A stretch of 64,000 nt of DNA from positions 537,185-601,184 of the forward strand of contig RPFO01000645.1 of assembly GCA_009746045.1 (NCBI GenBank), given 5' to 3'. Shown here piece by piece: positions 4,955 to 62,400 of this stretch (the first letter of the stretch is position 1; the number at the start of each line of letters is the position of its first letter). The translations under genes were made by a program, and so were the position numbers. The stretch comes from Mesostigma viride. Lineage: Eukaryota > Streptophyta > Mesostigmatophyceae > Mesostigmatales > Mesostigmataceae. Below the pieces are notes generated by a model. The model saw only the letters and a program-made list of their open reading frames with translations, was not told the DNA's origin and did no database searches.

Positions 4955-7900
4955 CTAGTTCTTGGGCGCGCCCAGCACCTTGCAGGCCGCGGCCACCGCG
5001 ACGCCTGTGTTGATCGGAGCCCCCATCTCCCTCAGCGTGGCCTCCAGTGCCGTGAGGCAGAAGATTACGTTCTTGGGTGTGGATGCGGCGCCCATGAGGC
5101 CGATGCGCCAGACCTTGCCCGCAAGCACGCCCAACCCCGCACCGATCTCCAGCCCATAGTTTGCCAGCAGCTTGGCACGCACCGCTTTCTCGTCCACGCC
5201 CTCCGGCACGACCACCGCATTGAGCTGTGGGAGCTGCGAGCCCTCCGGCACCAGCATGCGCATGCCCATCGCGGTAAGCCCTGCCTTGAGCGCGTCGTGG
5301 TGCTGCCGGTGGCGCGACCATGAGGCCTCCATGCCTTCCTCCAGCAGCATTACAAGCGACTCGTGGAAGCCGTAGAGCGCGTTCACGGGTGCCGTGTGGT
5401 GGTAGGAGCGAGGCGCGCCCCCCGAGGCCGCCTCCCAGTAGGACATGACGAGGGAGAGGTCGAGGAACCAGGACTGGACCTGCTCGCCGCCGGCACCGTG
5501 AGGAGGGGGGGGGGAATGCAAAGGGGGGGCGGGGGGATAAAAGGGGGGGAAGGGAGGGGCGGGGTTGCAAGGGGGGAGGGGGGAGGATGCAAGGGGTTAG
5601 GGGGGGAGGGGGAAGCTTAAAAGGGGGGAGGGGCAGGCACAGCCTGCCATGGCGCTCCGCATTACAAAGTGTTAGGTTGCCAATGTTAGGTAAGAGCAAA
5701 GTCAGCAAACATTGACCACTGAAGGTGTCCTTAACATTTGTTGATGTGTCAACTCACCGTCACCATTGGTCAGTGACTCCCATACTTCACAGGGATGGTG
5801 GTGGGTGGGGACGGGGTGTAGACATGGAGAGTGTCTTTTCCAGCAACAATAGGTTCCCTCCATTCCCTCCTCGCCCTCACTGTACATGGAATACATCTTA
5901 TAACTCCGGCAAACAGTGGCAAATTAGTCTACGCGAGCGAATCCCGACCAGGAGCCTGTAGGAGCAGCAAGACAGGTACACCACCCCCCAAAAATGGCAA
6001 TTGCCGTTCACGCAATTACAACTTTACAGTAGAAAAGGCGCTCACGGAAGCAGCTACTCACGATTTGTTGCCTCGCTATCCACGAAACACAAGCACAGCG
6101 CCCTGAGCATAACCGCCTGTCCGCTACGTGCACAGAAGAAGGCAATGTGCCTCAACTCTCCCCAACTCTCCCCAGCCTCGTGCCCCCCCCCCCCCAGCTA
6201 ACCTTTGTTTTCCTGTTCTTGACCACCTGCGCGGCCTTATCCGAGAAGGTGACGGGCGACAGACCCGGCGTGCAGGAGAGGCACTTCTGGGACCCCGAGT
6301 AGACCGCGTCCGCTCCCCATTCGTCCACCAGCAAGGGGACTCCCCCTAGCGACGTCACCGCGTCCACGATCGACAGCATGCCGTGTGACGCCGCCAGCCT
6401 ACACAGCGACTTGGCGTCCGACAGCGCGCCCGTGCTGGTCTCCGCATGCACAAACGCGAGTGCCTTGGCGCTCGGGTTGGCCTTGATGGCCGCCTCCACC
6501 TTGTCGACTGACACCGGGTGCCCCCACTCGTCCTCCACCATCACCGCGGTGCCCCCGCAGCGCTCCACGTTCTCCTTCATCCTGGGCGGTGGGTGGGGGG
6601 TGAGGGGGGGTGAGGGGGGGTGAGGGCACGAGGACCGATGGGCGTGGACAGCGCGAGTGTGAGGAGGGGAAATGTCAGCGTTCGAGCGCTCCCATTTGGA
6701 CAGGCATGGTCGGTCCGGCGAGGCCGCGGCACGTGCGACGACTCACGCACCTCCACATGAGATGGTCGGGTCGTGACCAGGTGTATAACATTACTTAGGG
6801 GTGATGGCACTACATGAGATGGTCGGGTCGTGACCAGGTGTATAACATTACTTGGGGGTGATGGCACCACATGAGATGGTCGGGTCATGACCAGGTGTAT
6901 AACATTACTTGGGGGTGATGGCACCACATGAGATGGTCGGGTCATGACCAGGTGTATAACATTACTTGGGGGTGATGGCACCACATGAGATGGTCGGGTC
7001 ATGACCAGGTGTATAACATTACTTAGGGGTGATGGCACCACATGAGATGGTCGGGTCGTGACCAGGTGTATAACATTACTTGGGGGTGATGGCACCACAT
7101 GAGATGGTCGGGTCATGACCAGGTGCCAGGTGTATAACATTACTTGGGGGTGATGGCACCACATGAGATGGTCGGGTCGTGACCAGGTGTATAACATTAC
7201 TTGGGGGTGATGGCACCACATGAGATGGTCGGGTCATGACCAGGTGTATAACATTACTTGGGGGTGATGGCACTACATGAGATGGTCGGGTCGTGACCAG
7301 GTGTATAACATTACTTGGGGGTGATGGCACTACATGAGATGGTCGGGTCGTGACCAGGTGTATAACATTACTTGGGGGTGATGGCACTACATGAGATGGT
7401 CGGGTCATGACCAGGTGTATAACATTACTTGGGGGTGATGGCACCACATGAGATGGTCGGGTCGTGACCAGGTGTATAACATTACTTGGGGGTGATGGCA
7501 CCACATGAGATGGTCGGGTCATGACCAGGTGTATAACATTACTTGGGGGTGATGGCACCACATGAGATGGTCGGGTCATGACCAGGTGTATAACATTACT
7601 TGGGGGTGATGGCACCACATGAGATGGTCGGGTCATGACCAGGTGTATAACATTACTTGGGGGTGATGGCACCACATGAGATGGTCGGGTCGTGACCAGG
7701 TGTATAACATTACTTGGGGGTGATGGCACCACATGAGATGGTCGGGTCATGACCAGGTGTATAACATTACTTGGGGGTGATGGCACCACATGAGATGGTC
7801 GGGTCATGACCAGGTGTATAACATTACTTGGGGGTGATGGCACCACATGAGATGGTCGGGTCATGACCAGGTGTATAACATTACTTGGGGGTGATGGCAC

Positions 7901-10900
7901 CACATGAGATGGTCGGGTCATGACCAGGTGTATAACATTACTTAGGGGTGATGGCACCACATGAGATGGTCGGGTCATGACCAGGTGTATAACATTACTT
8001 GGGGGTGATGGCACCACATGAGATGGTCGGGTCATGACCAGGTGTATAACATTACTTAGGGGTGATGGCACCACATGAGATGGTCGGGTCGTGACCAGGT
8101 GTATAACATTACTTGGGGGTGATGGCACCACATGAGATGGTCGGGTCGTGACCAGGTGTATAACATTACTTGGGGGTGATGGCACCACATGAGATGGTCG
8201 GGTCGTGACCAGGTGTATAACATTACTTGGGGGTGATGGCACCACATGAGATGGTCGGGTCATGACCAGGTGCCAGGTGTATAACATTACTTGCGGGTGA
8301 TGGCACCACATGAGATGGTCGGGTCGTGACCAGGTGTATAACATTACTTGGGGGTGATGGCACCACATGAGATGGTCGGGTCGTGACCAGGTGTATAACA
8401 TTACTTGGGGGTGATGGCACTACATGAGATGGTCGGGTCGTGACCAGGTGTATAACATTACTTGGGGGTGATGGCACCACATGAGATGGTCGGGTCATGA
8501 CCAGGTGTATAACATTACTTGGGGGTGATGGCACTACATGAGATGGTCGGGTCATGACCAGGTGTATAACATTACTTAGGGGTGATGGCACTACATGAGA
8601 TGGTCGGGTCGTGACCAGGTGTATAACATTACTTGGGGGTGATGGCACTACATGAGATGGTCGGGTCATGACCAGGTGTATAACATTACTTGGGGGTGAT
8701 GGCACCACATGAGATGGTCGGGTCATGACCAGGTGTATAACATTACTTAGGGGTGATGGCACCACATGAGATGGTCGGGTCGTGACCAGGTGTATAACAT
8801 TACTTGGGGGTGATGGCACCACATGAGATGGTCGGGTCGTGACCAGGTGTATAACATTACTTAGGGGTGATGGCACCACATGAGATGGTCGGGTCGTGAC
8901 CAGGTGTATAACATTACTTGGGGGTGATGGCACCACATGAGATGGTCGGGTCATGACCAGGTGTATAACATTACTTGGGGGTGATGGCACCACATGAGAT
9001 GGTCGGGTCATGACCAGGTGTATAACATTACTTAGGGGTGATGGCACCACATGAGATGGTCGGGTCGTGACCAGGTGTATAACATTACTTGGGGGTGATG
9101 GCACTACATGAGATGGTCGGGTCGTGACCAGGTGTATAACATTACTTGGGGGTGATGGCACCACATGAGATGGTCGGGTCGTGACCAGGTGTATAACATT
9201 ACTTAGGGGTGATGGCACCACATGAGATGGTCGGGTCGTGACCAGGTGTATAACATTACTTGGGGGTGATGGCACCACATGAGATGGTCGGGTCGTGACC
9301 AGGTGTATAACATTACTTGGGGGTGATGGCACTACATGAGATGGTCGGGTCGTGACCAGGTGTATAACATTACTTAGGGGTGATGGCACTACATGAGATG
9401 GTCGGGTCGTGACCAGGTGTATAACATTACTTGGGGGTGATGGCACCACATGAGATGGTCGGGTCATGTCCAGGTGTATAACATTACTTGGGGGTGATGG
9501 CACTACATGAGATGGTCGGGTCGTGACCAGGTGTATAACATTACTTAGGGGTGATGGCACCACATGAGATGGTCGGGTCGTGACCAGGTGTATAACATTA
9601 CTTGGGGGTGATGGCACCACATGAGATGGTCGGGTCATGACCAGGTGTATAACATTACTTGGGGGTGATGGCACCACATGAGATGGTCGGGTCATGACCA
9701 GGTGTATAACATTACTTAGGGGTGATGGCACCACATGAGATGGTCGGGTCGTGACCAGGTGTATAACATTACTTGGGGGTGATGGCACCACATGAGATGG
9801 TCGGGTCGTGACCAGGTGTATAACATTACTTGGGGGTGATGGCACCACATGAGATGGTCGGGTCGTGACCAGGTGTATAACATTACTTGGGGGTGATGGC
9901 ACCACATGAGATGGTCGGGTCATGACCAGGTGCCAGGTGTATAACATTACTTGGGGGTGATGGCACCACATGACATGGTCGGGTCGTGACCAGGTGTATA
10001 ACATTACTTGGGGGTGATGGCACCACATGAGATGGTCGGGTCGTGACCAGGTGTATAACATTACTTGGGGGTGATGGCACTACATGAGATGGTCGGGTCG
10101 TGACCAGGTGTATAACATTACTTGGGGGTGATGGCACTACATGAGATGGTCGGGTCATGACCAGGTGTATAACATTACTTGGGGGTGATGGCACTACATG
10201 AGATGGTCGGGTCGTGACCAGGTGTATAACATTACTTGGGGGTGATGGCACTACATGAGATGGTCGGGTCGTGACCAGGTGTATAACATTACTTGGGGGT
10301 GATGGCACTACATGAGATGGTCGGGTCGTGACCAGGTGTATAACATTACTTGGGGGTGATGGCACTACATGAGATGGTCGGGTCGTGACCAGGTGTATAA
10401 CATTACTTGGGGGTGATGGCACTACATGAGATGGTCGGGTCGTGACCAGGTGTATAACATTACTTGGGGGTGATGGCACTACATGAGATGGTCGGGTCGT
10501 GACCAGGTGTATAACATTACTTGGGGGTGATGGCACCACATGAGATGGTCGGGTCATGACCAGGTGTATAACATTACTTGGGGGTGATGGCACCACATGA
10601 GATGGTCGGGTCGTGACCAGGTGTATAACATTACTTGGGGGTGATGGCACCACATGAGATGGTCGGGTCATGACCAGGTGCCAGGTGTATAACATTACTT
10701 GGGGGTGATGGCACCACATGAGATGGTCGGGTCATGACCAGGTGTATAACATTACTTAGGGGTGATGGCACTACATGAGATGGTCGGGTCGTGACCAGGT
10801 GTATAACATTACTTGGGGGTGATGGCACCACATGAGATGGTCGGGTCATGACCAGGTGTATAACATTACTTGGGGGTGATGGCACTACATGAGATGGTCG

Positions 10901-13669
10901 GGTCATGACCAGGTGTATAACATTACTTGGGGGTGATGGCACTACATGAGATGGTCGGGTCGTGACCAGGTGCCAGGTGTATAACATTACTTGGGGGTGA
11001 TGGCACTACATGAGATGGTCGGGTCATGACCAGGTGTATAACATTACTTGGGGGTGATGGCACTACATGAGATGGTCGGGTCGTGACCAGGTGTATAACA
11101 TTACTTGGGGGTGATGGCACTACATGAGATGGTCGGGTCATGACCAGGTGTATAACATTACTTGGGGGTGATGGCACTACATGAGATGGTCGGGTCGTGA
11201 CCAGGTGTATAACATTACTTGGGGGTGATGGCACCACATGAGATGGTCGGGTCGTGACCAGGTGTATAACATTACTTGGGGGTGATGGCACCACATGAGA
11301 TGGTCGGGTCATGACCAGGTGTATAACATTACTTGGGGGTGATGGCACCACATGAGATGGTCGGGTCATGACCAGGTGTATAACATTACTTGGGGGTGAT
11401 GGCACTACATGAGATGGTCGGGTCATGACCAGGTGCATAACATTACTTGGGGGTGATGGCACTACATGAGATGGTCGGGTCGTGACCAGGTGTATAACAT
11501 TACTTGGGGGTGATGGCACTACATGAGATGGTCGGGTCGTGACCAGGTGTATAACATTACTTGGGGGTGATGGCACTACATGAGATGGTCGGGTCGTGAC
11601 CAGGTGTATAACATTACTTGGGGGTGATGGCACTACATGAGATGGTCGGGTCATGACCAGGTGTATAACATTACTTGGGGGTGATGGCACCACATGAGAT
11701 GGTCGGGTCATGACCAGGTGTATAACATTACTTGGGGGTGATGGCACCACATGAGATGGTCGGGTCGTGACCAGGTGTATAACATTACTTGGGGGTGATG
11801 GCACCACATGAGATGGTCGGGTCATGACCAGGTGTATAACATTACTTGGGGGTGATGCCACCACATGAGATGGTCGGGTCGTGACCAGGTGTATAACATT
11901 ACTTGGGGGTGATGGCACTACATGAGATGGTCGGGTCATGACCAGGTGCCAGGTGTATAACATTACTTGGGGGTGATGGCACTAACGGATGATGCCCCTC
12001 CGTGCGAAGCGAGCTCCTACCTGCCCCCGAACACGCCGTTGCGGCACACGATGACCAAATCCCCGGGCTCCACCAGGTTTACAAAGCAGGCCTCCATGCC
12101 CGCGGAGCCGGGCGCCGACACGGGGAAGGTGAGCCGGTGGGTGGTCTGGAACGCCACCTGGCAGCATAGGGGTGGTGGTGTGTGGTGTGGTGTAATGTGA
12201 TGGGGTGTGATGTTGGTGTGCGTGGACAGGGGGGGATGGGAGTGGGGTTGGGGGGGGTTGGGGGGGAAAGGGAGGGGAAGGGCAACAAGGCAGCCACATA
12301 CCATGCAAGTTAAACTGGCGAAGCAAACCATGTGGTCAGGGCAGTCTTACGATAAACTACGTTGGCAGATACCATAAGTGCTGCGTTTCCGTATGCTGTA
12401 GCGCGTTAAGAATGAGAAGAAGAAAAAAATTACGGTTTTTATCAATCCTGATGTTGTGAAGTATGATAGACTCATCTTAAGAATGTTGATAATGCTATGG
12501 GGGCACACAGCAGAAAGAATTATATATCGCGTTCGATAGGTGCCATAATCAACATGCCAATAAATGCTGGCACAGGCATGTATATGGAGGTGGGTGCTGT
12601 CCAGTGGCCGCAGCCCGCAAGTCGTATCAACCAGGCAGATTGCAGTCAAGGGCCCAAACAGAGTCACCACTACGACCCCCTCACACCACACAAATGCAGC
12701 AGAGGACATTAGCAGCAGAACGAGGCCTAGTGGTTGCCCTGAAAATGAGGATCCAACCAGTTCCCGGGTGTTCAATCAGGGATTCGCAGCAGGGTGTTCC
12801 TATGAGTGGCATACCGTGCCACATGCCCTGCTAAGAGTATGGCTGCTATGCCAAAACCATACAAAACAAGACCAACCTTCTTAGTGAACAAATTACTTAT
12901 TTATGGCTCAATAATGAAACCGATCATGCTATCGACAGCCCACGCGGTTGACATCTGCCCATAACGATGGGGCGATGACACCCAAATGGAATAACCGTGC
13001 AGTGAAGGCCAGCGGGTTGGTCTCAAACGCTAAAAGCATACTTGATGTCGTGGAACCAACTAACGCAGTGACCATACGTGGTAATAACGACTGGTACGCT
13101 TCGGCAGCAAGAGGCAGTGAAGGTATACATCGGAGACTAGATGGCACTGGTCTGCCGACGCTTCGACAATCAACGTCCTTGGGTTTTGTGCTTTTGTACA
13201 ACAGCCGAGAAACCATTACGAGTAGAGTTAGAAAATTAAATTGGGAGCAATGGAAAAACCGCAAGGTTAACAATGAACTAGTTCACAAAAAAAATGAAAT
13301 CCAGCTTACCCTCAACATTTCTTTTATTTCGTCCATCATGGTCACAAACGCGGGGTCCAGATGCCCAACAGTCGGTCTCGCCATGGCTTGCAAGACTCGA
13401 GGGTGTACGTCACTCGGCCCAGGACCCATCAGAACCCTGACAGGAGGATTGAAGCTTTTGAATTGTTTATCTGGAGAAGCCATAGCTCTTACGTCGAAAG
13501 CAGGAAAGCCACGGGCGGTTTTCAAGCAAGGTTTAATTGCAGAGGGACGCAAAAATGTGAGGCGAAATCGCTTTGGCAAAAAGCCGGTAGCGGGATCCGA
13601 GGGTGCAGAAACGGGAAAGCAGCCACTCGAGGAGTCCAAAAGCCGAGTGCTAGCGTCAATGGCGTACAT
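4955..13669 (-). CDS. serine/alanine-glyoxylate aminotransferase (PLP enzyme of photorespiration)
   Basis: Class V aminotransferase that passes the amino group of serine or alanine to glyoxylate. Four exons on the minus strand: 13669-13310, 12157-12021, 6581-6203 and 5479-4955, all GT-AG and in phase, giving 466 residues. The family core begins at [25 protein letters not shown] (exon 1) and runs about 404 residues, the usual family length. The preceding ~60 residues, from MYAIDAST, fit an organelle targeting peptide. Exon 2 holds [17 protein letters not shown] [12 protein letters not shown] and NGVFGGR. Exon 3 has VDAVTSLGG and SGSQKCL, where the Lys is the PLP-binding lysine. Exon 4 carries RSYHHTAP and ends LGAPKN. 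The 5.4-kb second intron contains the 57-bp array; intron 3 (5480-6202) is G-rich near exon 4. The start codon is the first ATG of the open frame; an internal ATG could give a form without targeting peptide. Confidence 0.93.
5500..5640. repeat. G-rich low-complexity tract in aminotransferase intron 3
   Basis: Repeated runs of four to eight G separated by A or short spacers on the plus strand. Read in the direction of transcription this is a C/T-rich tract immediately before the exon 4 acceptor, so it serves or has expanded from the polypyrimidine tract. Confidence 0.8.
6753..11984. repeat. 57-bp minisatellite, about 91 copies, inside aminotransferase intron 2
   Basis: A nearly uninterrupted array of a 57-bp unit containing ATGAGATGGTCGGGTC, then ATGACC or GTGACC, then AGGTGTATAACATTACTTGG. 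Variation is almost confined to three binary sites: CACCACA/CACTACA, GTCATGACC/GTCGTGACC and TTGGGGG/TTAGGGG, mostly transitions. Six units carry a 7-bp internal duplication (CCAGGTG) near 7121, 8268, 9930, 10680, 10970 and 11946. GGTCATGACC is a perfect 10-bp palindrome. The array starts about 35 bp past the exon 2 donor and ends about 170 bp before the exon 3 acceptor. Confidence 0.98.
12158..13309. other. intron 1 of the aminotransferase gene, no feature seen
   Basis: The 1.15-kb intron between exons 1 and 2. The part next to exon 2 is G-rich on the plus strand, so pyrimidine-rich in the transcribed direction. The remainder shows no gene, repeat or RNA I can support. Confidence 0.7.
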
Positions 13670-15188: not shown

Positions 15189-18100
15189 CGCATCGATGAT
15201 GCGAGCGCACTCTATCCCCAGGTACCCCCGGCATGAGGTTGTGCACAGCCGGCACAGTTCGACGATGCTGCCCTGTGTGTCGCACAGTTAGGGATGGGAA
15301 AAGCGTGCCAGGCATGACACCGTGAGGGAGCTGAGAATCTGCAGGACGCTTTGCGTCCAGACATGCGAATGTTGCATTTGTCACTGGGAGAGCGGAGTAG
15401 CGAGGGGAGGAGGGAGGGGGGAGGGGAGGGGGAGGGGGAGGGAGGGGGAGGGAGGGGGAGGGGGAGGGGGAGGGGGGGAGGGGAGGGGGAGGGGGAGGGG
15501 AGGGGGAGGGGGAGGGGAGGGGGAGGGGAGGGGGAGGGGGAGGGGGAGGGGGAGGGGTGGTACTTTTGTTCACTGCTTCATCTTTTGCATCTTATTGCTT
15601 GGTTGCTATCGCCCCCCCACACACACCCTCTTGCGCCCACCATGCCGTCATGATATATCCGTCTGCCGCAGCGTGCTTCCGGACTCGTTCGAAGGCTCCC
15701 TCATTGCTGCGGCAAAGGCAGCGGCTCGCATCATCAACAGCGGCGCCGGCACGCGCGTGCTGGTACGCACTACTCCATATCAATGACACAACCCATGTGT
15801 CACAACCCATCGGTTCGCGCCATCACCATATGCCTCCCAATGCCCTCATCCACATCCACATCCACATCCACACCCAGACCCACACCCACACCCACACCCA
15901 CACCCACACCCACACCCACACCCACACCCACGCCCACGCCCACGCCCACGCCCACGCCCACGCCCACGCCCACGCCCACGCCCACGCCCACGCCCACACC
16001 CACACCCACACCCACACCCACACCCACACCCACATCCACATCCACACCCACAAAACCACACACCTCCTGGTATGAGCTGCTCTGCTGCAAGTTAATATTG
16101 CAAAGCCTGGTTTTCCAAGACACTTCCATGGCGTAAGCCCTTTGGTAGGGCTTGCCCCCTCACTATCATGTGTGCACACTTAAGAGGCGGCAGCCTGCCT
16201 CTATAGATGGAAAAGCAACCAGGGCTTGACTGTTTCGCCCTGCAAGTAGCTGCACAAATGGGTCGCTGAGGACCGTGCCATGCTCCTGCTGGCATTTGTA
16301 TTGTCATCACCGGCGTGCCCACACGTGTATCTGCTGCAGTAGCCGACTGCCTTGATAGACTTTGAATCAATATTCTTTGCGACGTCCGACACCGCTTGCA
16401 AATAGCAGTGGTGGCGTGCTGCACGATGCTTAATATGTCATACATCGATCATCGCGGCTGCATCACCGCTGCACATAGCTGTGTTGTATGCACCGGCATC
16501 AGACACAGGATTGTGGCAGTTGCAGATAAATGTCACTGGGTTGCCTGCCCTTGGTTAGGTATATGCGTGCTTGTGCAAGTGCATCTTTTTATGTGGCTGA
16601 CAAGCCAAAAGACAATGTTCCTATGTGTGTATGCGTGCCCCAGAATTCACCACCATCTTATATAGTCACTGCCCTCTCTCGGCTTGGCACACTTTTCATA
16701 CACATGCACCTTGCCGCACCCCCCCTAACCCCTATGCCCTTCCCCCCTACCCCTTGCTCCCTCCATGATCCCCCCTTCAACCCCCAGGTGGAGGTGATCG
16801 TTCCAGAACTGGAGATCAAGGCGGACGACGGCGACCAGCAGCGCGAGTGGGACATGTGCGGCATGTTCGTGGCCGCGCTGACACAGCTCACGGGGCAAGG
16901 GGCGGTGCGTGCGAGGGTACACTGGGCAGTAGCACCTGGCAGCCGTACGCATGGTTTCTCCCTTTGCAGTAGCACCTGGCAGCCGTGCGCATGGTTTCTC
17001 CCTTTGCAGTAGCACCTGGCAGCCGTACGCATGGTTTCTCCCTTTGCAGTAGCACCTGGCAGCCGTACGCATGGTTTCTCCCTTTGCAGTAGCACCTGGC
17101 AGCCGTACGCATGGTTTCTCCCTTTGCAGTAGCACCTGGCAGCCGTACGCATGGTTTCTCCCTTTGCAGTAGCACCTGGCAGCCGTACGCATGATGGTTT
17201 CTCCCTTTGCAGTAGCACCTGGCAGCCGTACGCTTGGTTTCTCCCTTTGCAGTAGCACCTGGCAGCCGTACGCATGGTTTCTCCCTTTGCAGTAGCACCT
17301 GGCAGCCGTACGCATGGTTTCTCCCTGCAGAACGAGGATGCAAGCCATGTCCTTTTGCCCTTCTCATCATCTGCCATCGTTCCATTAGGTGTGGCGTGTG
17401 TGCATCAAGTGAATGCAGTACCTTTGCGTGGCCGCCTGTGGCACTACCCTGCCGCACAGTTTTGCGGTCCCTGTGCTGGCTGTGGCTTCATGCGGAGATC
17501 ATTTGTCAGACCCTGCCATGCTGGAGGGCGTCCCTCTGCACCGTTCCATCCTTTGAAACAGGAATGCAATAGAACTTCAGCGACAAGACCAAATGTGTAG
17601 CATATGCATTGTGCTTCCTGCAGTACTAGCCAGTTTCACTTTATTGTGGCACTGTATGGATTGACGGCTGGCGACTGCATTGCCCCGCGTAGGGAACGAG
17701 GGGCAGTGGAGTCACCCATCCCCCCATGGCAGCACCACATCCATGGTCGGCATCCCCATCAACTTCCCGTAGACACATATCGGGCACATGTTGGCTTGCC
17801 TGATCGCCTTACCTTGCCTGGAAACGCATTGTCGGTTGGGTGGCCTGCGTGGCATTGGAGTTGGGGTGTCCCTGGATGGGGTTTCGGCGTGCCTGGCCAA
17901 GCAGGGCGTGCGTGCCATCTTCCCTGACGCAGGCGCGGCCGCCATGCTAAAAAACGCGTGGGTGGACGCGTCGTTCCAGATCGGGAGGTACTGCCAACTG
18001 TCACTTTTCTTGATCCTGTGTCTCCATCCGGCAGGTATCTGTTGCAATATGTGTAAAAAAAACTTGTTTTTGAATTCCTTGTTGCTATCAGATGGCACAC

Positions 18101-26775: not shown

Positions 26776-28190
26776 GAGCCTCCGCCTGCTTAGTGAGTGG
26801 CAGACGGCCGGCCATCCGAGTCATGCTGTACAAGAAGGGCTCTGCTGCTGACCCCGCGGTAACTATCCGGGGGGTGTCTGCCTCCAGTCTGAGCGCCCGC
26901 GCGCTGAAGGTCTTCATGCGCATGATGCTGCACAGCCTGGCTCCGCGCCGGCCGCGCTGGACCCACACCTGGGTGAGTCTCAGATCAGTCAGATGGGTTT
27001 CCGTCGTGGTCGTAACACTGTCATGGCTTTATTTGTCGCGCACCGGTTGATGGACCTGAGGAGCGTCGCCTTTGCCCTGATGCATGGTTTGCCGCTGCAG
27101 GTCTTCATTTTTGTCGACTATATCAAACGGCCTTTAATTAATTAATTAATTAAACTCGTGCTCCCGTTGGGGAGTCACGGAGCACCGAAGTGCTTTTAAT
27201 CCCTGTGTGTGCACTACAGGAGAAAGGGCAGAGACCCCCAGTCTCCTTCATGCCAAAGGCATGCCACAGCTGCAATCGGGCGCGGCTCAAGCTAAAAGGA
27301 CAGGCTAACGATCCGGCAAACTGTGGGTGCAATAAGACCCATGTGAGCATATCATAGCAAGGAGCGTGGGCAAGTAATCTGAACACCGGAAACGGCCTTT
27401 GATGTCCACGGTCCTCTGGGACTCAGGCTCTTTGGGCCATCCTAGCTCTAGATCGGGTACCGCCAGCGTTTATTGCTGCCATTCGTCGACTGTATGAGGG
27501 CTCACAGGCAGTAGTAGTGCGGACTGCGGAAGGCACCACCCCGCCGTTCCTCCTTCACCACGGGGTGTGGCAAGGTTGTATAGTCCTGTCCCCATATCTA
27601 CAGGTTCGTTATTGCATGTCGTGGATCAGTCACTCACGTCATGCGCCGGGCACGTGCACGCTTTACTGCTCTTATATAAAGGGGTTCGAGCCCAGCTTGG
27701 CGAGCGCGAGCACGGCGGGGGCGGCATGCGCATGCACTGGATACCGCCTGGCCGACCTAATTTATGCGGATGACTACCACCCGTCATCGCGCGCCCCGAG
27801 CACATTCAGACCTGGCTGGACTGTCTGGGGTTGGAGGCGAGGGCGGTGGGGTCGGAGATTAGTGTCAAAACTGAGGCGATGGTGATTGGGGCCTCCAGTC
27901 GCCCGCCTCTGCCGCGCCTGCTCGACGGGGCGGAGGTCCCGTTCCGTGATCGCTTTAAACTGCATGTTAGGGAGCATGCTCCCCGACACCGCCGACGATG
28001 TGGACATCCGCATCGGCCTGGCCTGGGCCCGGCTCCGTTCGCTCAACACATACTGGCGCTTGAAGGGCCTGGGCAAGCACCGTAAGAGCATGCTCTTCAA
28101 GGTCCTGGTCCTCACGGTGCTTACGCATGGCGCCGAGGCATGGACACTGAGGCTCACGGACACAGTGGCCGAGTGGCGGCTAAGAGAGGA
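26776..28190 (+). pseudogene. LINE reverse transcriptase remnant, interrupted by a later insertion
   Basis: Frame-shifted but clear reverse transcriptase blocks: MGFRRGRNTVMALFVAHRL, then VFIFVDYIK; after the insertion AFIAAIRRLYEGSQAVVVRT and LLHHGVWQGC. The catalytic YADD box follows in LADLIYADD, then HGAEAWTLRLTDTVAEWR of the post-RT region. The order matches non-LTR retrotransposon ORF2. The frame is cut at 27136-27389 by a smaller retroelement with a perfect target duplication. At about 28190 it breaks into an ORF1-type fragment on the other strand. I cannot name the LINE clade. Confidence 0.8.
27136..27389 (-). mobile_element. short retroelement (ORF1-element 3' end) with 11-bp target duplication
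   Basis: A 254-bp minus-strand insertion ending in the hairpin GGAGTCACGGAGC / CTCCCGTTGGGGAG and a (TTAA)n tail at 27136-27152. It is flanked by AAACGGCCTTT at 27125-27135 and 27390-27400. Removing it rejoins the reverse transcriptase frame around VDYIK-AFD. Related copies lie at 36353-36606, 37527-37765 and 37817-38080. Confidence 0.9.
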
Positions 28191-28695
28191 GCGGGCTCTG
28201 CCCCCAGTCTCCTTCATGCCTAAGGCATGCCACAGCTGCATTCGGGCCGACGCTAGCTAGCTAAACGGACACGCTAACGATCCGGCAATCTGTGGGTGCA
28301 ATAAGAGTCACCCATGTGAGCATGGCATAACAAGGAGCGTGGGCAAGTAATCTGATCATAGCCAGGACGTAGCATGGCTGTACAAGGGTCACTAAGCTAA
28401 GGCTATGGCTGGTTGTGTACCGTGCTTGAGCGGTGCACGTGACTAGTAGGTATGTTGGCAACGCTATAGGCAAACATTCTAAGCATGGCTGCCATAGCGG
28501 CAGTGACTACCAATGGATACAAGCTAGGGCTACTAGGCAAGCTATTCTAGCCCGCTGGGGGCGTCCACATCTTGTGGTTGATCATCAGGTCCCTGCCCAT
28601 CCAGTACACCTTGGGCTTCTGGGGGTCCTGCTTGTGGCGGAGGTATTCCGGCGCCACAGGTCGCGTCGCTGCTTCTGCTGAGCGGGGGTCAGGTC
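28191..28695 (-). pseudogene. ORF1-element fragment (C-terminus plus 3' UTR)
   Basis: The reverse complement matches the 3' UTR and last part of ORF1 of the element at 36353-37470, including the ORF1 end near VYWMGRDLMINHKMW. It is fused on its left to LINE reverse transcriptase and on its right to an ORF2 C-terminus in the opposite orientation, so it is a rearranged remnant. Confidence 0.7.
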
Positions 28696-28945
28696 GTCGT
28701 CCAGTACAAGAAGCGGTGGCAGAAGATTGTCCAGACTCACACGCCAGCCCCTGTGGGCAAGCCCCCTCCCCCCAAGCGGAAAGGTCGTCTTGCTGAATAG
28801 TGTAGTTAGATTTTTTTTCTAGATAGCTTAGTTAGGTTCGTTCGATTACGCGCGGCTTCGCCCACCTTGATCCATCCATCCAGCAAGGAATATGTGCTAC
28901 GTGATCTCCCAACGGAGACATGCATGTTATACTTTAATTTAATAT
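28696..28945 (+). pseudogene. LINE ORF2 C-terminus and 3' UTR
   Basis: Encodes KKRWQKIVQTHTPAPVGKP, then PPPKRKGRLAE and a TAG stop at about 28800. A 3' UTR follows with GTGCTACGTGATCTCCCAAC and the hairpin CTCCCAACGGAG near 28908, and an AT-rich tail. This shows the shared 3' end downstream of a real ORF2 stop. A second hairpin (ACTCCCAACGGAGT) lies at about 28958. Confidence 0.75.
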
Positions 28946-29044
28946 CTAGCTTTAATACTCCCAACGGAGTACGTTATGTTCCTAAATAATTTGATATGCA
29001 GGCAAATTAATATTTGTAGTATTTAATTTCATCACACGTGCTCC

Positions 29045-29240
29045 CCGCAGATAAATGGTCTTGAATTATAAAAGATACCAAATTCTTATGCAACCTAGCT
29101 GGTGGAAACGGAAACCCTGAAGGGATAAAGCCCCGGCCTGCATACACGTCTTGAATTATAAAAGATAGGTACCAAATTCTTATCCAGCCGGCCTAGCTGG
29201 TGGAAACGGAAAGGGATAAAGACCCGGCCTGCATACATAT
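29045..29240. repeat. direct duplication, ~95-bp unit x2
   Basis: Two copies containing GTCTTGAATTATAAAAGATA, AATTCTTATGC/CCAG and GCTGGTGGAAACGGAAA, ending CCCGGCCTGCATACA. A copy of the dispersed AACCAGCGCAGGCCAGAAAT repeat follows at 29252-29320. Confidence 0.85.
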
Positions 29241-29724
29241 CAATTAGTCGAGACATGCAACCAGCGCAGGCCAGAAATCTGGAGAATCGATCTGGAGCAT
29301 GGTAGCTCGAGCCTGCCGTTATCTGAAATCCACGCGTCTTCAAGTTGATGATGCAGACGATATTTGTCACTTTCATGTAATTATTTAATTCTAATGAAAT
29401 TAAAGCATAGTACTGCGTGGCATGCCCATGCGCATAACACGCAAGTACTTGTACCTAGTAGTTACTTACTTCAAGTCGATCATGCAGGATATATTGGATC
29501 TGAATGGAGATGGAAATGTATAGCCTTACATTCACTGAAATCATGGCTTGCTGGCACTAAGAGCAACTAGATGACCTAGTCGTTGGGGCTGGAAACATCT
29601 TGCTTGATCAGGTCGTGTGTTTCGAGACATGCCTAATTTTGTAAGCGTATATAGTGCCATTCCGCCAGCGCAGGCCATGGGCATGGTTGTCCCCGCCACA
29701 CTTGTGCACATATGACTTACGACC
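29241..29724. other. intergenic end of the retroelement zone
   Basis: Holds the dispersed repeat at 29252-29320 and otherwise AT-rich sequence. On the minus strand TGTAA (29527-29531) would be a possible algal-type poly(A) signal for MsrA, but a 5-mer is weak evidence. Confidence 0.4.
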
Positions 29725-29799
29725 GTACATTATTTTTCAGCATTCTAGGGCACCTGGCCCTCTGGCCGGTTTTGTCCCTATCGCGTCATGTGAATATAC
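29725..29799 (-). promoter_or_regulatory. candidate SECIS element in the MsrA 3' UTR
   Basis: Read on the minus strand, 29799-29793 (GTATATT) can pair with 29734-29731 plus 29727-29725 (AATA...TAC) as the basal helix. The core ATGA is at 29789-29786, opposite TGA at 29739-29737. Twelve bases later comes the unpaired AAAA (29773-29770). The main helix pairs TAGGG (29780-29776) with CCCTA (29750-29746). The tip is a mini-helix, CCGGCC (29769-29764) with GGCC-A-GG (29759-29753), closed by AGAG. ATGA, ~12 nt, A-rich bulge and extra apical helix match a type II eukaryotic SECIS. The lower helix has mismatches. It lies about 235 nt past the stop codon. Pairing was done by eye. Confidence 0.6.
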
Positions 29800-30032
29800 A
29801 GAAGGTGTCATTTTGCTAGCAGCGACGCAAGATTACCAGTCCAGCCTTCAAAACAATCCCAGAGCTCCCACCCTGTTGCCGAGCAGGTGGCAGTAGGAAG
29901 GTGGTGCCGATGCCAACGGCAGTTGCCAACAAGAGCGTGCTCGGCAGAGCATGCTCCCTAAAGCATGCATGGTTGACACAGCCTGCTCAATAGAGCGTGC
30001 TCCCTACATCGTGCATGATCGACAGAGCCTGC

Positions 30033-31755
30033 TCAATAGAACATGTCCCGCGCCTTGAGCAGGTACTTCTGGTGGTACTCCTCTGCGCGCGTGAAGACAC
30101 CCGCCGGTTCGATCATCGTCGCTGGCGCACGCCCCCTCGCGGCCGCCTGCTCCTGGAACGTGCGCTGCGCCGCCGCCATCTGGCGCTCGTCGTGCGTGAA
30201 GATGGCAGACATGTACTGGCGGCTGCGGCGGCCCATCGGGTCATGCATGGTCCAAAACAGGTCGAGCAGCTGCTCGTACGTAATCACGTTGGGGTCGTAC
30301 GAGAGCTGCACGCTCTCCGAGTGGTCGCCCATGTTGTGGTACGTGGGGTTCTGCACACGACAGAGCATGGCATATGGCATGGCATGGTACGATGTGTGTG
30401 AAGGCAGCCAGCATTGGCTAGAGTGCTCGGTCAAGTTTGGATAGGTGACAGCGCACGGTGGGTCAAAGTCACATTTAACACTTGACGGGTCAAATAAGAT
30501 ACAATCCATGTCCTGCACACATCACGGCGTCGCATCGCACGGTGGGCGTAGCCAGCAACAACATCGGGTTCTGCATCATCGGCATGCGTTGTATAGTGTG
30601 AGGATGAATGCGGCCAACAACACCGGAATGTCCAACAAATTTCGTTTTACGCTCGTGAACAGCAAGTGGTAGGCCCAGGAGGCTCCAGCTGTGTGCACAC
30701 AGCTTCACAGAGGATGCATGCATGTGTACACGTCTGGGCATGTCAACATGACAGCAAAGCAGAATGCTGTGGGATGAAGGAGTATGTTGACAGTTAAGTT
30801 GAGGGCATATGTTGTCGGTGATTAGAGAAGCAAGCCCCCCTTTAGAAGTCACCTCCGCGAAGCCTAGCACCCAGTCAGATCGACAGTACATGATGTGAGG
30901 GATGCAAGGTAGGTTTTTGCAGGTCTGGAACAGGACATTGTTGTGTGCAGACCACCTGCAGGCATCCGTACCTCTGTGGTTCCACCCGCATAGCCAACTT
31001 GTGTAGATACGATGCCGTGAACCTTCAGGAACGCGGCCTCGGGCTGAAAATGGCATGCACACGCACAAGTCCAACATCGGGATCAGGTTACAACCGAAAG
31101 CGGTGAGAGCACCCCCCCCTTCACATACTCTTCACAGCCATCAAGGTGCCACAAACAGTACCGTTTTCCTCGGGATGCCTTTCGCAATAACCGATATAGC
31201 TCTTCTTTAGTGCTTCGGAAACGGCCTTGAATAAGCGGGGCTGCTGGCGGACATCATCGTGCCGACCATTCGGTCACCTGTAAAGATAGCATGTCGTGAC
31301 GTGTAGTGGCTTCTACGTGCATACGGCTGAAGCATCCCATGGCCTAACGCTATAGATGCTCAAGAAACATGCATGGGCCGAGTGTGCCCAGCTTTTTCCA
31401 ATTCGACATTTCAATCGCTCGGCTGAAGAGTCAAGGCCCACGGGCGTGGAAACATGACGATACTTACTTGCCAAAATCATCCCATAGCAAAGGTAGCCAG
31501 CTCGGTCGGCCTGACAATTTCATTTGCAGACTTGATGACACCGGGGCTGCCATTTTCTCCCTTGCTGGACATGGTCGTCACTTGCCGGGGCAGCTTCACC
31601 ATGGAGGCGGGCCTTGATCCGAGTGGCAGCAAGGTGGCTCGCTTCGTTGGGGAACAATACCTCAGCACAGCCCTGTTTAGGATTCTAGAGGATGCCGCGA
31701 TACCTAAAGCTTGACGAGGCGTGATGTACGGCTTGCACACCACGCACGCACTCAT
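30033..31755 (-). CDS. msrA: peptide-methionine (S)-S-oxide reductase MsrA, selenoprotein
   Basis: Reduces methionine-S-sulfoxide in proteins back to methionine. Three exons on the minus strand: 31755-31468, 31043-30972 and 30350-30033, GT-AG and in phase, giving 225 residues. Exon 1 ends ELATFAMG-TGA-FWQ and exon 2 opens PEAAFLKVHGIVSTQVGYAGG. The family catalytic motif is GCFW, so TGA (31479-31477) sits exactly at the catalytic cysteine and must be read as selenocysteine. Exon 3 holds NPTYHNMGDHSESVQLSYDP, the EQLLDLFW and AEEYHQKYL motifs, and stops with a second TGA. No cysteine follows the catalytic site, so there is no resolving Cys. The ~85 N-terminal residues are rich in Ser, Arg and Ala and may target an organelle. 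The family assignment is firm; which upstream ATG is used is less sure. Chlamydomonas MsrA is a known selenoprotein. Confidence 0.92.
31477..31479 (-). other. in-frame TGA selenocysteine codon of MsrA
   Basis: The codon lies between ATGGGA (Met-Gly) and TTTTGGCAA (Phe-Trp-Gln), nine bases before the exon 1 donor GTAAGT. Reading it as Sec restores the MsrA active-site motif G-U-F-W with no gap on either side. Confidence 0.88.
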
Positions 31756-32454
31756 TGCTCCTTTCTCGAAAGGAAAGATGCCTGGCGCATGCAATTTCAG
31801 GCAATTTATGGATATGGCGGAGAGCCGGGGGGGTTATCAACGCCGCTTCGTGATGTGCAGACAGTATCTATCCCCGGCAGCCATTGACGTGGCGAACTGG
31901 GGGACTCCATCATATGCATGCCCTGGTTCTCCACAACCTGGAAATGCCACGAAGGCAGATTGTGCGAGATACGCTCGACAGCATGCGAAATTGATGTTGT
32001 TCAGTAATTTTATAAATAACGTGATATTACTTCCCTGCAAGTACCACTAATTAAGACCACTATTGTCCGTATCGCCACTTGTCGGGAACATCAGGTAGAT
32101 TGTCAAACATCAACTCGTTCTCGTCATTTCCCGGAAAGTTTTAAAATATTATGCTGGCTGGTCGCGACTCGCGAACGTATGTCAGCATTTGGGGAACGTT
32201 GCGTACAGTAATTTGGAATGCCACCGCCCGCGTGTTTAGCGTAATGCAATAAGACGGAAATGGCGGACTGCTAAAAGCACTGCCAATTTGCCGGCCGATC
32301 CTTCTGTCTCTTGTAGGAACGTGCCAATGTGCCCATACGGCTGGCAGAGAAAGTCTCCTGTGCTGCTCTAGGTTGGAGCTCGTGCTGAATGTACACGGCT
32401 TGGGTGCGGGGCGTGCGATGAGGACCAGTTCAGGGAGACCGCTGTGTTAATGAC
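31756..32454. promoter_or_regulatory. shared upstream region of MsrA (-) and the HPAT-like gene (+)
   Basis: A ~700-bp divergent intergenic region, AT-richer around 31990-32160. It probably holds both promoters and 5' UTRs. No specific element recognised. Confidence 0.4.
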
Positions 32455-34245
32455 ATGCCCATGTTTTCCCTGATATCTGGCGCCGTCCGATTGGTTACCG
32501 CGAGAAAAGATGAAGGCAATGCTCCCCAACCACTCACCCCCACGAGGCATGGCAGGCGAGCCGGCAATCTCCTCCTTTTGTCTATCCTGGTGGCATCGTT
32601 CGCGGTGGCATCCTTCTTTGTTAAGGTCATCCACATACACTACCACGCGCCGCACGCGCCGCAGATGGTGGGCGTCCAAAGGACTGTCAAGCTGCGGACG
32701 GCGGCCTTCCCTGAGATGACAAACGGCGGCTCTGTCTGCCCGGAATGCGACAAGGCGACAGCTAGCAGCAACTTGGATGCAATCTTGCAAAGAGTGAGCA
32801 GTGGGCCTGATGGGCTAGAGCTCGGGCAGCTTTCTTCCGCGTCAGATAACCTCTCGCCTGACCGACCGGCTGGCTCAAGTCAAAGTCCTCAAACTCTCGC
32901 TGCTGGTGTGGCATCGGCTGGACCGGCGCCGGGCGTGCAACCGGACGCAACGCGGCCCATCCCTTCCTTCGCCAGTGGCTCCAGCGCGCCAGGTCCAGAC
33001 CCGGGCGCGCAGCGTCCTTTACAGTTACAGACGGCATCTCTGCCACGAGCCCTGTCAGCTTGGGAAACCATGCTGCTGCCAAACGCGGCATCCTCCCCGC
33101 CGCCTGTCCAGCCCCTGGCCAGGTGGCAGCCCAGAAACGCGGTCGCGCTACGTGCGGGCACCTTCCGCAGGGGCCGCGCGCCCCGCCGTGACGTCGACGG
33201 CATCCACGTGATCTGCACGTCGGACGGCAGCGCCGCCTTAAACTGGCAGACGGTGGTCATGTACCACAGCTTCCTCCAGGTGGCGCCCGCCAGCGACATG
33301 CACTGCTTCACGCGCATCCTCCATCGCAGCACGCCCGATGAGCTCATGCTGCGCGTGCCCACGCTGCGCGTCGATCCGCTCGACCCCGCGTGCGACGCCG
33401 GCGCGTCCCAGGCATGCCCCTACCCGGTGGCGGGGCGGCCGAAAGCGGTTGCGGACTGGGTCGCGTCAGGGGACCTGTGCAGCCGATGGATCCTGATGGT
33501 CGAGACCGACTACGTGTTTGTGCGGCCGATCCACCTGGCAAGCGTGATGCAGTCAGCACGACATGCCCTCGGTGCGAAGCCAGAACATGGCAGTGATGAC
33601 AACTCATCCCAACCGGGCGCCAATAGTAGTGCCAGCGGGCCCAGCTCGGTGGCAACCCAACCTTATGCTGGCGCGCCGCCCCTGCCTGAGATCCAAGCGG
33701 TGGGCTACCCCTGGAAGAACATCAAGCCGTCGCACGGCAAGACCGGCCGGCTCATGCGCCGCTACTTCCCCGAGTCCAAGGGCCCGCTGACGCTGGTGCC
33801 CGGCACAGGGAACGCGCCCGTGCTAATTCAGGCGCCCGCGCTGCGCCGCCTGCTCCCCCACTGGGTCAATGTGACGGCGGCCATGGAGACCGACCCGGAC
33901 GTGGTCTCCTCGCTCGGCTGGGTGCGCGAGATGTATGCCTACTCGGTCGCGTCCGCGCTGGCCAGGGTCCCCCACGTGCTCCCCCACTACCCCCACTCGC
34001 TGATCGCGATGCCCACCGTGCACAAGCGCATGGGCCACGCGCATATGATCCACTTCACGGGGCGGGTGGTGCTGGAGGATGGCGCACACAACAAGGTGTG
34101 GTCATTCAACAAGGCCTTCTGGCCCGGCGCGGCGCCTGAGCATATCCCGGAGCCACCGGCGGAGCTCTCATTTCCGACGATTCGGCTCCTGGTGGACACG
34201 ATCAACACGGCACTGCGGGAGTATGCCGCCAGCAAGGGTGGGTGA
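32455..34245 (+). CDS. hydroxyproline O-arabinosyltransferase-like glycosyltransferase (type II Golgi membrane protein)
   Basis: An intronless 596-residue protein. Residues ~40-60 (NLLLLSILVASFAVASFFV) form one membrane anchor after a basic stretch, the signature of a Golgi type II enzyme. A Pro/Ser/Ala-rich stem follows to about residue 240. The catalytic part starts DGIHVICTSDGSAALNWQTV and has LHRSTPDEL, then WILMVETDYVFVRPIHL with an acidic ETD motif probably binding metal and nucleotide sugar. Next come PYPVAGRPKAVADWV before it and VGYPWKNIKPS, then TAAMETDPDVVSSLGWVREMYAYS and MIHFTGRVV after it. These match plant HPAT/RDN1-type enzymes (GT95), which add arabinose to hydroxyproline. 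An ~40-residue Ser/Asn/Gly-rich insert follows the ETD block. Substrate in this alga, for example cell-wall Hyp-rich glycoproteins, is inference. Confidence 0.85.
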   Translation: MPMFSLISGAVRLVTARKDEGNAPQPLTPTRHGRRAGNLLLLSILVASFAVASFFVKVIHIHYHAPHAPQMVGVQRTVKLRTAAFPEMTNGGSVCPECDKATASSNLDAILQRVSSGPDGLELGQLSSASDNLSPDRPAGSSQSPQTLAAGVASAGPAPGVQPDATRPIPSFASGSSAPGPDPGAQRPLQLQTASLPRALSAWETMLLPNAASSPPPVQPLARWQPRNAVALRAGTFRRGRAPRRDVDGIHVICTSDGSAALNWQTVVMYHSFLQVAPASDMHCFTRILHRSTPDELMLRVPTLRVDPLDPACDAGASQACPYPVAGRPKAVADWVASGDLCSRWILMVETDYVFVRPIHLASVMQSARHALGAKPEHGSDDNSSQPGANSSASGPSSVATQPYAGAPPLPEIQAVGYPWKNIKPSHGKTGRLMRRYFPESKGPLTLVPGTGNAPVLIQAPALRRLLPHWVNVTAAMETDPDVVSSLGWVREMYAYSVASALARVPHVLPHYPHSLIAMPTVHKRMGHAHMIHFTGRVVLEDGAHNKVWSFNKAFWPGAAPEHIPEPPAELSFPTIRLLVDTINTALREYAASKGG

Positions 34246-59442: not shown

Positions 59443-62400
59443 ATGAGGATATTTGTTGGTGGGCTATTCGAGCAGGGAAGCCGCCACCCGACAATGGCGG
59501 CGCTAATGGAGGCTTGCGGGAAGATGAATTCGAGTGTACCGACATATATAAGACAGAATTTGACGGAATGCAGCCGCGCCGACGGAGAGATGTCGAACAG
59601 GAAAAGGCCGGTTTTTTCAAAGAGTTATGTGCCCAAAACGACATGTTCTCTAGGCCATCCCAGCAGGCAGGGCAGCAAGCTTTTTCCTGCGAAGAAAGCT
59701 TTCCTGCCGCGCCCTCAAACCAAGTTGGTGCATATCGCCGTCAGCTGCGTCGCTAACCAGGTTGCTTGTTCGACGAATGGGAAGAAGGTTGCTCCCGAGA
59801 GCGGCAACTACGAAATTAGCGCACCTGCTTCTGAGGACAGGAACGGGGGAGCTTCGCTTTCGACAGCCGCGCACAGCGCCTTCCATCAGAAGTATAGGCC
59901 AATGAAGTTCAATGAGCTACGTGGACAGGTGGGCATTTACTCATAATTGATCTTCTTGTCATTTTGTTTTCCTACTTGATATCATCTGCCCTTCAGACTG
60001 CACATCCAGGACGTTCATCTCAGCTGATGTGCTGCAGGAATACGCAGAAGTACTCAGTAGTGGGAATATGCCAGCGTTATCTAGGAGTCGTGATCCCGTC
60101 AGGCAATCTGCCAGATAGAGTTTTGTAAGGGTAACACGCTTTTTCTCCTGTGCTCACTGGATGCAATATATCAGCTGACCGTTCTCCATTTAGCACTTTC
60201 CTCGTCGGGCGCAGCCCCTCGTGGCCGAAGCGCTGGCGGCAGCTGTCATGAACAACAAATTGGCCCCGGCATACATATTCTCAGGCCCCAGGGGCACGGG
60301 CAAAGTAAGTGTCGTTTGGTCTCCGATGCGTGTTGGTACCAACAGCTTGCCCATGCTAATCCCTCTCGGTGCATGTGCCTGTGCTTGGCTCGCAACATCA
60401 TGAGCGTCTCTCTCACCACGCGTTCATGGTCACGCAGCGCCCATGACTACTATGTTAGTTGTCACTGTGCTTAACCCACATCCCTGGCTGCCATCACTCC
60501 CATGTGTGTGCAGCTGCCTCTCGCACGTGTGCGGGTTCATGCACCCGTCGACCTGAGTTTGTTTTGATAGAGTAGGCAAAAGAGTGACATCTGCAGAGTC
60601 GAAACCAGCCAGGCCTAGCGGTCAGGTTCCATCATTTTGGCAGTGTTCATAATCCAAGGCATCACCATGACCGCGAGGCAAGCATGCACCCTGCGCCTGG
60701 TGCACTCTTCCGCTGCCTGTGCTTACCAATTATTTCTGGTCTTTTCTGGTCCTTGTGTTTTGTCTGCCCTATGTATTTTTCCTTGGGGCAAGCTATACTG
60801 TAATCTTCCTTTATATATGAATAATCAGGAAATCGGAGCCAACATATACCTTGCCTCCACACCTACCGCTTGCCTCCACACCTACCCCTTGCCTCCACAC
60901 CTACCCCTTGCCTCCACACCAACCCCTGGCCTCCGCACCTACCCCTGGCCTCAGCACCTACCCCTTGCCTCTGCTCCAACCCCTTGCCTCTGCCCTTACT
61001 CCTTGCCTCCGCCCTTACTCCTTGCCTCCGCCCTTACTCCTTGCCTCCGCCCTTACTCCTTGCCTCCGCCCTTGCTCCTTGCCTCCGCCCTTACTCCTTG
61101 CCTCCGCCCTTACTCCTTGCCTCCGCCCTTGCTCCTTCCCTCCGCCCTTACTCCTTGCCTCCGCCCTTACTCCTTGCCTCCGCCCTTACTCCTTGCCTTC
61201 GCCCTTACTCCTTGCCTCCGCCCTGACTCCTTGCCCCCGCCCCTGCTCATCGCCTCTGCCCCTACACCATCCACGTTGATGCCTCTTTCGGGGCACCTCC
61301 TGCCTCCTCCACGTTGCCAAGTTGCTTGTTTAGCCTGCCGTTTCGCCCCTGTATCCCTGTACTTAAATTACCTGCTGGCTTCACCCAGCCTGAGAATGTC
61401 CGCCCACCCTTGTACGGGGGTTGGAAGCGGCTCATCAGGCTCCCGCTTCTTCCCGTTTCTGGTACCCGGGATTCCACCGCGTTCGCCATACATGGCTCAC
61501 ATTTGGTGTTGATTTCTTGTTCCCGCAGCTCGGCTTTCTGCTTGGCAGAGCTTCGGTTGTACTGCTTTTCTTCCCGGGGCCCCACCCTTGATTAGTCTTT
61601 GTGGTCAGATAGGCGGTTCATACGTCTTGTCCATGCATGGTGCCGATATGCGTTCATGGTGACGCAGTCTACGTGTACATTAATACACGCCTTTATTCAA
61701 TATACCTGATACCTCTTTGTTCCGCATACCGCGCCTAATGAGTGTTGCCTATGAACATTGGTGTTCTCTTCTCCCATGCGTCTGCGACCTGCCCCTCCAC
61801 AGACGTCGTCGGCGCGCATCCTGGCAGCGGCAGTCAACTGCGTGGACCGGGAAAGCATGAACGGGGAGCCCTGCGGAAGGGTGGGTGTGGGAGGGGTTGC
61901 CTGTAGCCTGGTGTGTGTTGGTGTTGTTGCCTTTGGCCAGGCGGGTGGAAGGGGGTTGCTTGGGATGTAGGCGGGGCCCGTGTAGCGTGGATTGATCCCA
62001 CCCTGCACCATTGTGAGGGTTTATGGTCTGTGTCTCCCCACCGTGGCCGGTTGTCTTCTAGGATGCAGAGTAGACATGCAGTAGAGAAGGTGCTACTGGG
62101 CTGGGAAATGCCGTGCTGGCACGACAGGTGTGGTGGTGACAGGCGCGGTGGACAGGCGCGGTGCCTGCAGGCAGGTAGCCGCGGTGGCAGCTGTCACACC
62201 CCACCAATGTCCCACAGAACTAGAGCGGATGTGGCCAACAAACAGAGGCGAGTTTGTTACCAACCGTCTGGCGGCCACGGCCACGGCAAAGGAGAGCTTG
62301 CAGGCAGCGTTGCTCACATGGGCTGTCATCGCATGGTGGGTTATGGAGGGTTTCTCATTACTGATGGTTTGGATTTCCAGCATTTCCTATTCCAGTAATG

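Follow-up and report, generated by a model that had tools for sequence, protein, structure and literature searches.

The window, by which we mean the whole 64-kb stretch of DNA analysed here (C1846:537185-601184) from Mesostigma viride, a green alga akin to land plants, carries on its minus strand a gene for the protein-repair enzyme methionine sulfoxide reductase A (MsrA) with a TGA codon in frame at the catalytic position, and the sequence evidence as a whole makes the recoding of this TGA as selenocysteine (Sec) the best explanation, one that we hold with high confidence. Exon 1 (31468..31755) comprises 96 codons, which encode an N-terminal extension and the start of the MsrA domain, and its translation ends with ELATFAMG-TGA-FWQ, in such a way that the TGA (31477..31479) is read as Sec at residue 93 and a GTAAGT donor lies immediately 3' of FWQ. 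Intron 1, of phase 0, extends over 31044..31467 (GTAAGT...TTTTCAG), and exon 2 (PEAAFLKVHGIVSTQVGYAGGTTE, 30972..31043), delimited from reading frames and sequence, opens at 31043 behind TTTTCAG, its first codons reading PEAAFLKVHG in phase 0, and extends to 30972, where GTACGG follows. Exon 3 (30033..30350), delimited from reading frames, is preceded by GTGTGCAG and completes the MsrA domain to AEEYHQKYLLKARDMFY-stop, the terminal stop being a TGA at 30035-30033. The spliced frame has 678 nt (288+72+318), coding for 225 residues plus the stop. An earlier note on this DNA had described the end of exon 1, the donor behind it and the in-phase continuation into exon 2, and translation of the minus strand confirmed this description.

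The spliced protein matched the Pfam family PMSR (PF01625) with 143.2 bits and an E value of 1e-41 over residues 87-222 (cut-off 23.7), scored with Cys standing in for Sec, and its C terminus, KARDMFY, coincides with the end of this match. The active-site motif G-[C/U]-F-W is present as AMG-TGA-FWQ, the TGA is flanked on either side by conserved MsrA sequence in the same frame, and no further stop or frameshift was found within the conserved domain. In an alignment of the window protein with 44 of the 120 listed protein matches (alignment A1), the catalytic column held Cys in 41 of the 44 homologues, with Ser in P0058, Trp in P0043 and a gap in P0033; one of the 41 Cys, that of P0002, derives from intron 1 and is non-homologous at this column. 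The proposal of the earlier note that the TGA replaces the catalytic Cys of GCFW is confirmed by this alignment. Across genome loci, a contig pattern scan found, among the matches listed, Cys at 79 of 80 catalytic codons and TGA at one, a proportion that says little on the frequency of Sec since the first of the patterns used (AxF[SAG][ML]GCFW and AEEYHQK) favours Cys. Downstream of the Sec, the window protein contains no Cys. The N-terminal extension suggests that the protein may be targeted to an organelle.

Folding of the 3' untranslated region (3' UTR), combined with a pattern filter, revealed on the minus strand a hairpin (29723..29801) resembling a Sec insertion sequence (SECIS) element, which lies 244 nt past the MsrA stop. 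Its helix 1 has 9 bp (29801-29793 paired with 29731-29723) and is followed by a core of ATGA (29789-29786) and TGA (29739-29737) and then by helix 2, with AAAA starting 12 nt after ATGA and an apical mini-stem on top. A strict SECIS filter run on both strands of the window gave one match, at 29789 on the minus strand, with a background of 5 matches in 300 random Markov-1 sequences of 64 kb, that is 0.0004 expected per 1500 nt, a rarity flattered by thresholds that were chosen post hoc, with the candidate already seen. The ATGA-N12-AAAA pattern alone is not rare (4 matches versus 1.28 expected). Since conserved, in-frame MsrA sequence flanks the TGA on either side and a SECIS-like element follows further downstream, chance was dismissed as the origin of this codon; the transcript would be spliced as drawn, and its UGA would be recoded to Sec via this element.

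Just beyond the MsrA stop (29934-30025), a 46-nt unit occurs twice in tandem, with 76% identity between the copies. From the terminal stop to the SECIS core the distance is 244 nt, and read-through of this stop would lengthen the protein by a tail of 24 residues, three of them Cys. Partial recoding of this second TGA via the SECIS would give rise to a one-Sec and a two-Sec form of MsrA, and the two-Sec form would then carry its own C-terminal resolving groups, amounting to a switch between glutaredoxin and thioredoxin. The tail is located largely inside the tandem repeat, which speaks against read-through, and we regard this second recoding as very unlikely.

The recoding of the catalytic TGA was also examined in the light of the Sec machinery encoded in the same genome (G000, 439.9 Mb in 2243 contigs). 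A tRNA-Sec was detected at C2022:5328818-5328904 on the minus strand with 63.3 bits (gathering score 47), the other four of the five matches falling below this score. ARAGORN identified the top locus as a tRNA-SeC with the anticodon TCA, and three of the four weaker loci (L093-L095) as Ser or Leu tRNAs at matching positions. For SecS, five exon matches (PF05889) were found at C777:1267424-1274950, and all three pieces compared matched only the NCBIfam family of the O-phosphoseryl-tRNA(Sec) selenium transferase. Two exon matches to SelD are located on C667, both with their best NCBIfam match to selD (67.0 and 36.7 bits, versus 22.1 and 19.7 for thiamine-phosphate kinase). In addition, a glutathione peroxidase (GPx) exon on C1891 (L102, G000:C1891:50000-56500) reads LITNVASR-TGA-GAT, where the TGA occupies the catalytic codon, and a SECIS-like fold around 160 nt past the apparent GPx stop was the sole match on both strands of 6.5 kb with a relaxed filter that has no measured false-match rate, the fold being missed by the strict one. 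The SECIS-like hairpin of MsrA, the tRNA-Sec (TCA), the SecS and SelD exons and this second TGA exon support the Sec-MsrA put forward in the earlier note.

Several results weigh against the recoding, and have to be set beside those above. The loose SECIS filter produced one plus-strand and four minus-strand matches in the window versus a random mean of 2.7 per 64-kb strand (20 sequences), which resembles the random background and is too loose to inform. No Rfam family reached its gathering score in the whole window, a search of 27500-32400 with E up to 10 returned three weak unrelated matches and no SECIS, and 29680-29840 gave no match. The tRNA-Sec model matched 14 of 14 control genomes, exceeding the cut-off in 5, and for this reason only the above-cut-off match was counted in M. 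viride. Control matches were also obtained for PF05889 in 3 of the 14 genomes, Bacillus subtilis included, and for selD in 13, over the cut-off in 2; both SelD exons are individually under the whole-protein cut-off. The Rdx family, which we take to be that of SelW, SelT and SelH, had no match in the genome (control, 2 of 14). From the gene, the earlier note had deduced that the organism has the Sec decoding machinery, and this is supported for tRNA-Sec, SecS and SelD, whereas domain III of eEFSec (PF21208) had no match in the genome; its control matched nowhere either, and the search is hence uninformative.

MsrA sequences were found at three other places of the genome. On C1215 and C1801 the active-site residue is Cys; in the third, on C2122, the catalytic exon could not be read, the sequence upstream of its first matched exon being N. 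With both readable catalytic exons coding for Cys, and a single base change being enough to turn a TGC or TGT codon into TGA, the window gene might be an ordinary Cys MsrA that became a pseudogene or was altered by a sequencing error. Nevertheless, its MsrA domain is conserved, with no other stop or frameshift, its splice sites are intact, a SECIS-like element is present in the 3' UTR, the genome encodes Sec machinery, and the domain is Cys-free, like that of the known Sec enzyme of Clostridium oremlandii, so that a pseudogene or an error appears highly improbable.

As the earlier note had anticipated, annotation breaks at the TGA. The best protein match, P0002, is the public protein Mv18267-RA (jgi/Mesvir1), which is identical to the window protein throughout exon 2 and for the first 73 residues of exon 3 (out of 105); it omits the Sec exon and takes a chance MGCF within intron 1 as its start. 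Its first 21 residues (MGCFSRMHVEATTRHDMLSLQ) are encoded letter for letter at 31340-31278, ending at the donor CAG/GTGACC, in such a way that the false first exon of this model (31278..31340, minus strand) lies entirely inside intron 1. The protein ends with GPRPAG, without the conserved C-terminal part, and no source for this ending was found nearby in the window. Were the public model correct, a Cys isoform would begin with MGCF... inside intron 1, leaving the TGA exon unused; its intron-1 exon does have a usable donor, and a core around ATGGGATG is common to the intron-1 fragment and the true exon. By contrast, Mv18267-RA has neither the nearly invariant Trp after GCF nor the strand preceding the active site, contains unrelated inserted residues, and stops at GPRPAG instead of continuing to the conserved AEEYHQKY, in such a way that we consider it extremely improbable that it represents the enzyme. 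The idea that intron 1 holds a duplicated Cys exon was rejected, as 24 of 70 compared positions were identical to the end of the true exon. Comparisons that rely on the proteome with Mv18267-RA will miss the Sec gene or mis-score the enzyme as a Cys form.

Among solved structures, the best relatives of the window protein include 4w8c and 4lwj/4lwk/4lwm, described in PMC4333827 and PMC4479559 as structures of the natively Sec-containing enzyme of C. oremlandii (CoMsrA). According to PMC4479559, this enzyme contains native Sec and no Cys, is reduced by glutaredoxin but not by thioredoxin, and exceeds its Cys form in activity by a factor of about 20, and PMC4333827 reports that deletion of its helical domain almost abolishes the activity. 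The window protein resembles CoMsrA in the predicted Sec at the catalytic site, the Cys-free catalytic domain and the absence of a VCxG insertion, and the catalytic domains are 52% identical (4w8c). Whereas CoMsrA has an essential C-terminal helical domain, the window protein stops at the end of the catalytic domain. To our knowledge, bacterial Sec insertion makes no use of a SECIS in the 3' UTR.

A group of short Cys MsrA proteins (P0003, P0004, P0007, P0008 and P0015) shares with the window protein a single domain of 143-144 residues of the GDH type, with 48-54% identity, but these proteins have both an active-site Cys and a C-terminal GAVC Cys, neither of which is present in the window protein. 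In the short forms P0010, P0013 and P0014 the GAVC Cys is absent, as it is here. The Sec MsrA of Chlamydomonas, which the earlier note had cited, is indeed mentioned as a green-algal Sec MsrA in PMC9404770, and the Chlamydomonas reinhardtii enzyme is likened to ours by this description, not by sequence. A literature search combining resolving cysteine and Chlamydomonas MsrA found nothing. One bacterial relative, L007, from the actinobacterial metagenome-assembled genome HGW-Actinobacteria-6, has a TGA at the same catalytic codon of its MsrA, and the sequence following this codon folds as a hairpin (no control was run), making it a candidate bacterial Sec MsrA. In a tree of 58 MsrA domain sequences the window protein stood on a weak, open fork, and since this leaves it unplaced no claim of horizontal transfer is made.

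By analogy with the C. oremlandii enzyme, the selenolate of the Mesostigma MsrA would attack Met-S-sulfoxide, and the oxidised selenium, with no resolving Cys in the domain, would be reduced by glutaredoxin and glutathione (GSH) and not by thioredoxin. The window gene most likely encodes a 1-Sec MsrA without a resolving Cys, which would be regenerated by glutaredoxin/GSH as in C. oremlandii.

Two papers bear directly on selenoproteins of M. viride, Liang et al. 2019 (PMC6627142) and Lobanov et al. 2007 (PMC2375036). The former describes the Sec machinery as complete in M. viride and in streptophyte algae including Mesostigmatophyceae, and reports nine selenoproteins for M. viride, together with a bacterium-like Sec MsrA called MsrA_b, which is treated as distinct from MsrA and listed for M. 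viride and Mamiellophyceae; three selenoproteins of M. viride are mentioned in PMC2375036. The window gene comes from the same species as MsrA_b and fits the same description in PMC6627142, bacterium-like Sec MsrA, and the two are probably one locus. A search for words starting with "seleno" in the main text of two M. viride genome papers (PMC6947507 and PMC7027972) found none. A Sec MsrA in M. viride is already known in kind, and this instance of it most likely is too; what is new here is the SECIS-like hairpin of MsrA and the location in the same genome of the tRNA-Sec, the SecS and SelD exons and the TGA-bearing GPx exon.

Regarding other features of the window, a 596-residue open frame on the plus strand (32455-34245), divergent from the MsrA gene, contains a hydroxyproline O-arabinosyltransferase domain (HPAT, 171.8 bits). 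At 6753-11982 lies a 5.2-kb minisatellite in which a 57-bp unit recurs about 91 times; its minus strand contains long open frames of repetitive sequence. Pfam searches on nine of the 46 listed open reading frames gave only two marginal matches (Phage_tail_C), both inside this minisatellite, and these look like chance. Further minisatellite arrays were found at 1022-1359, 16926-17326 and 60849-61265, with units of 42, 40 and 19/38/57 bp, respectively.
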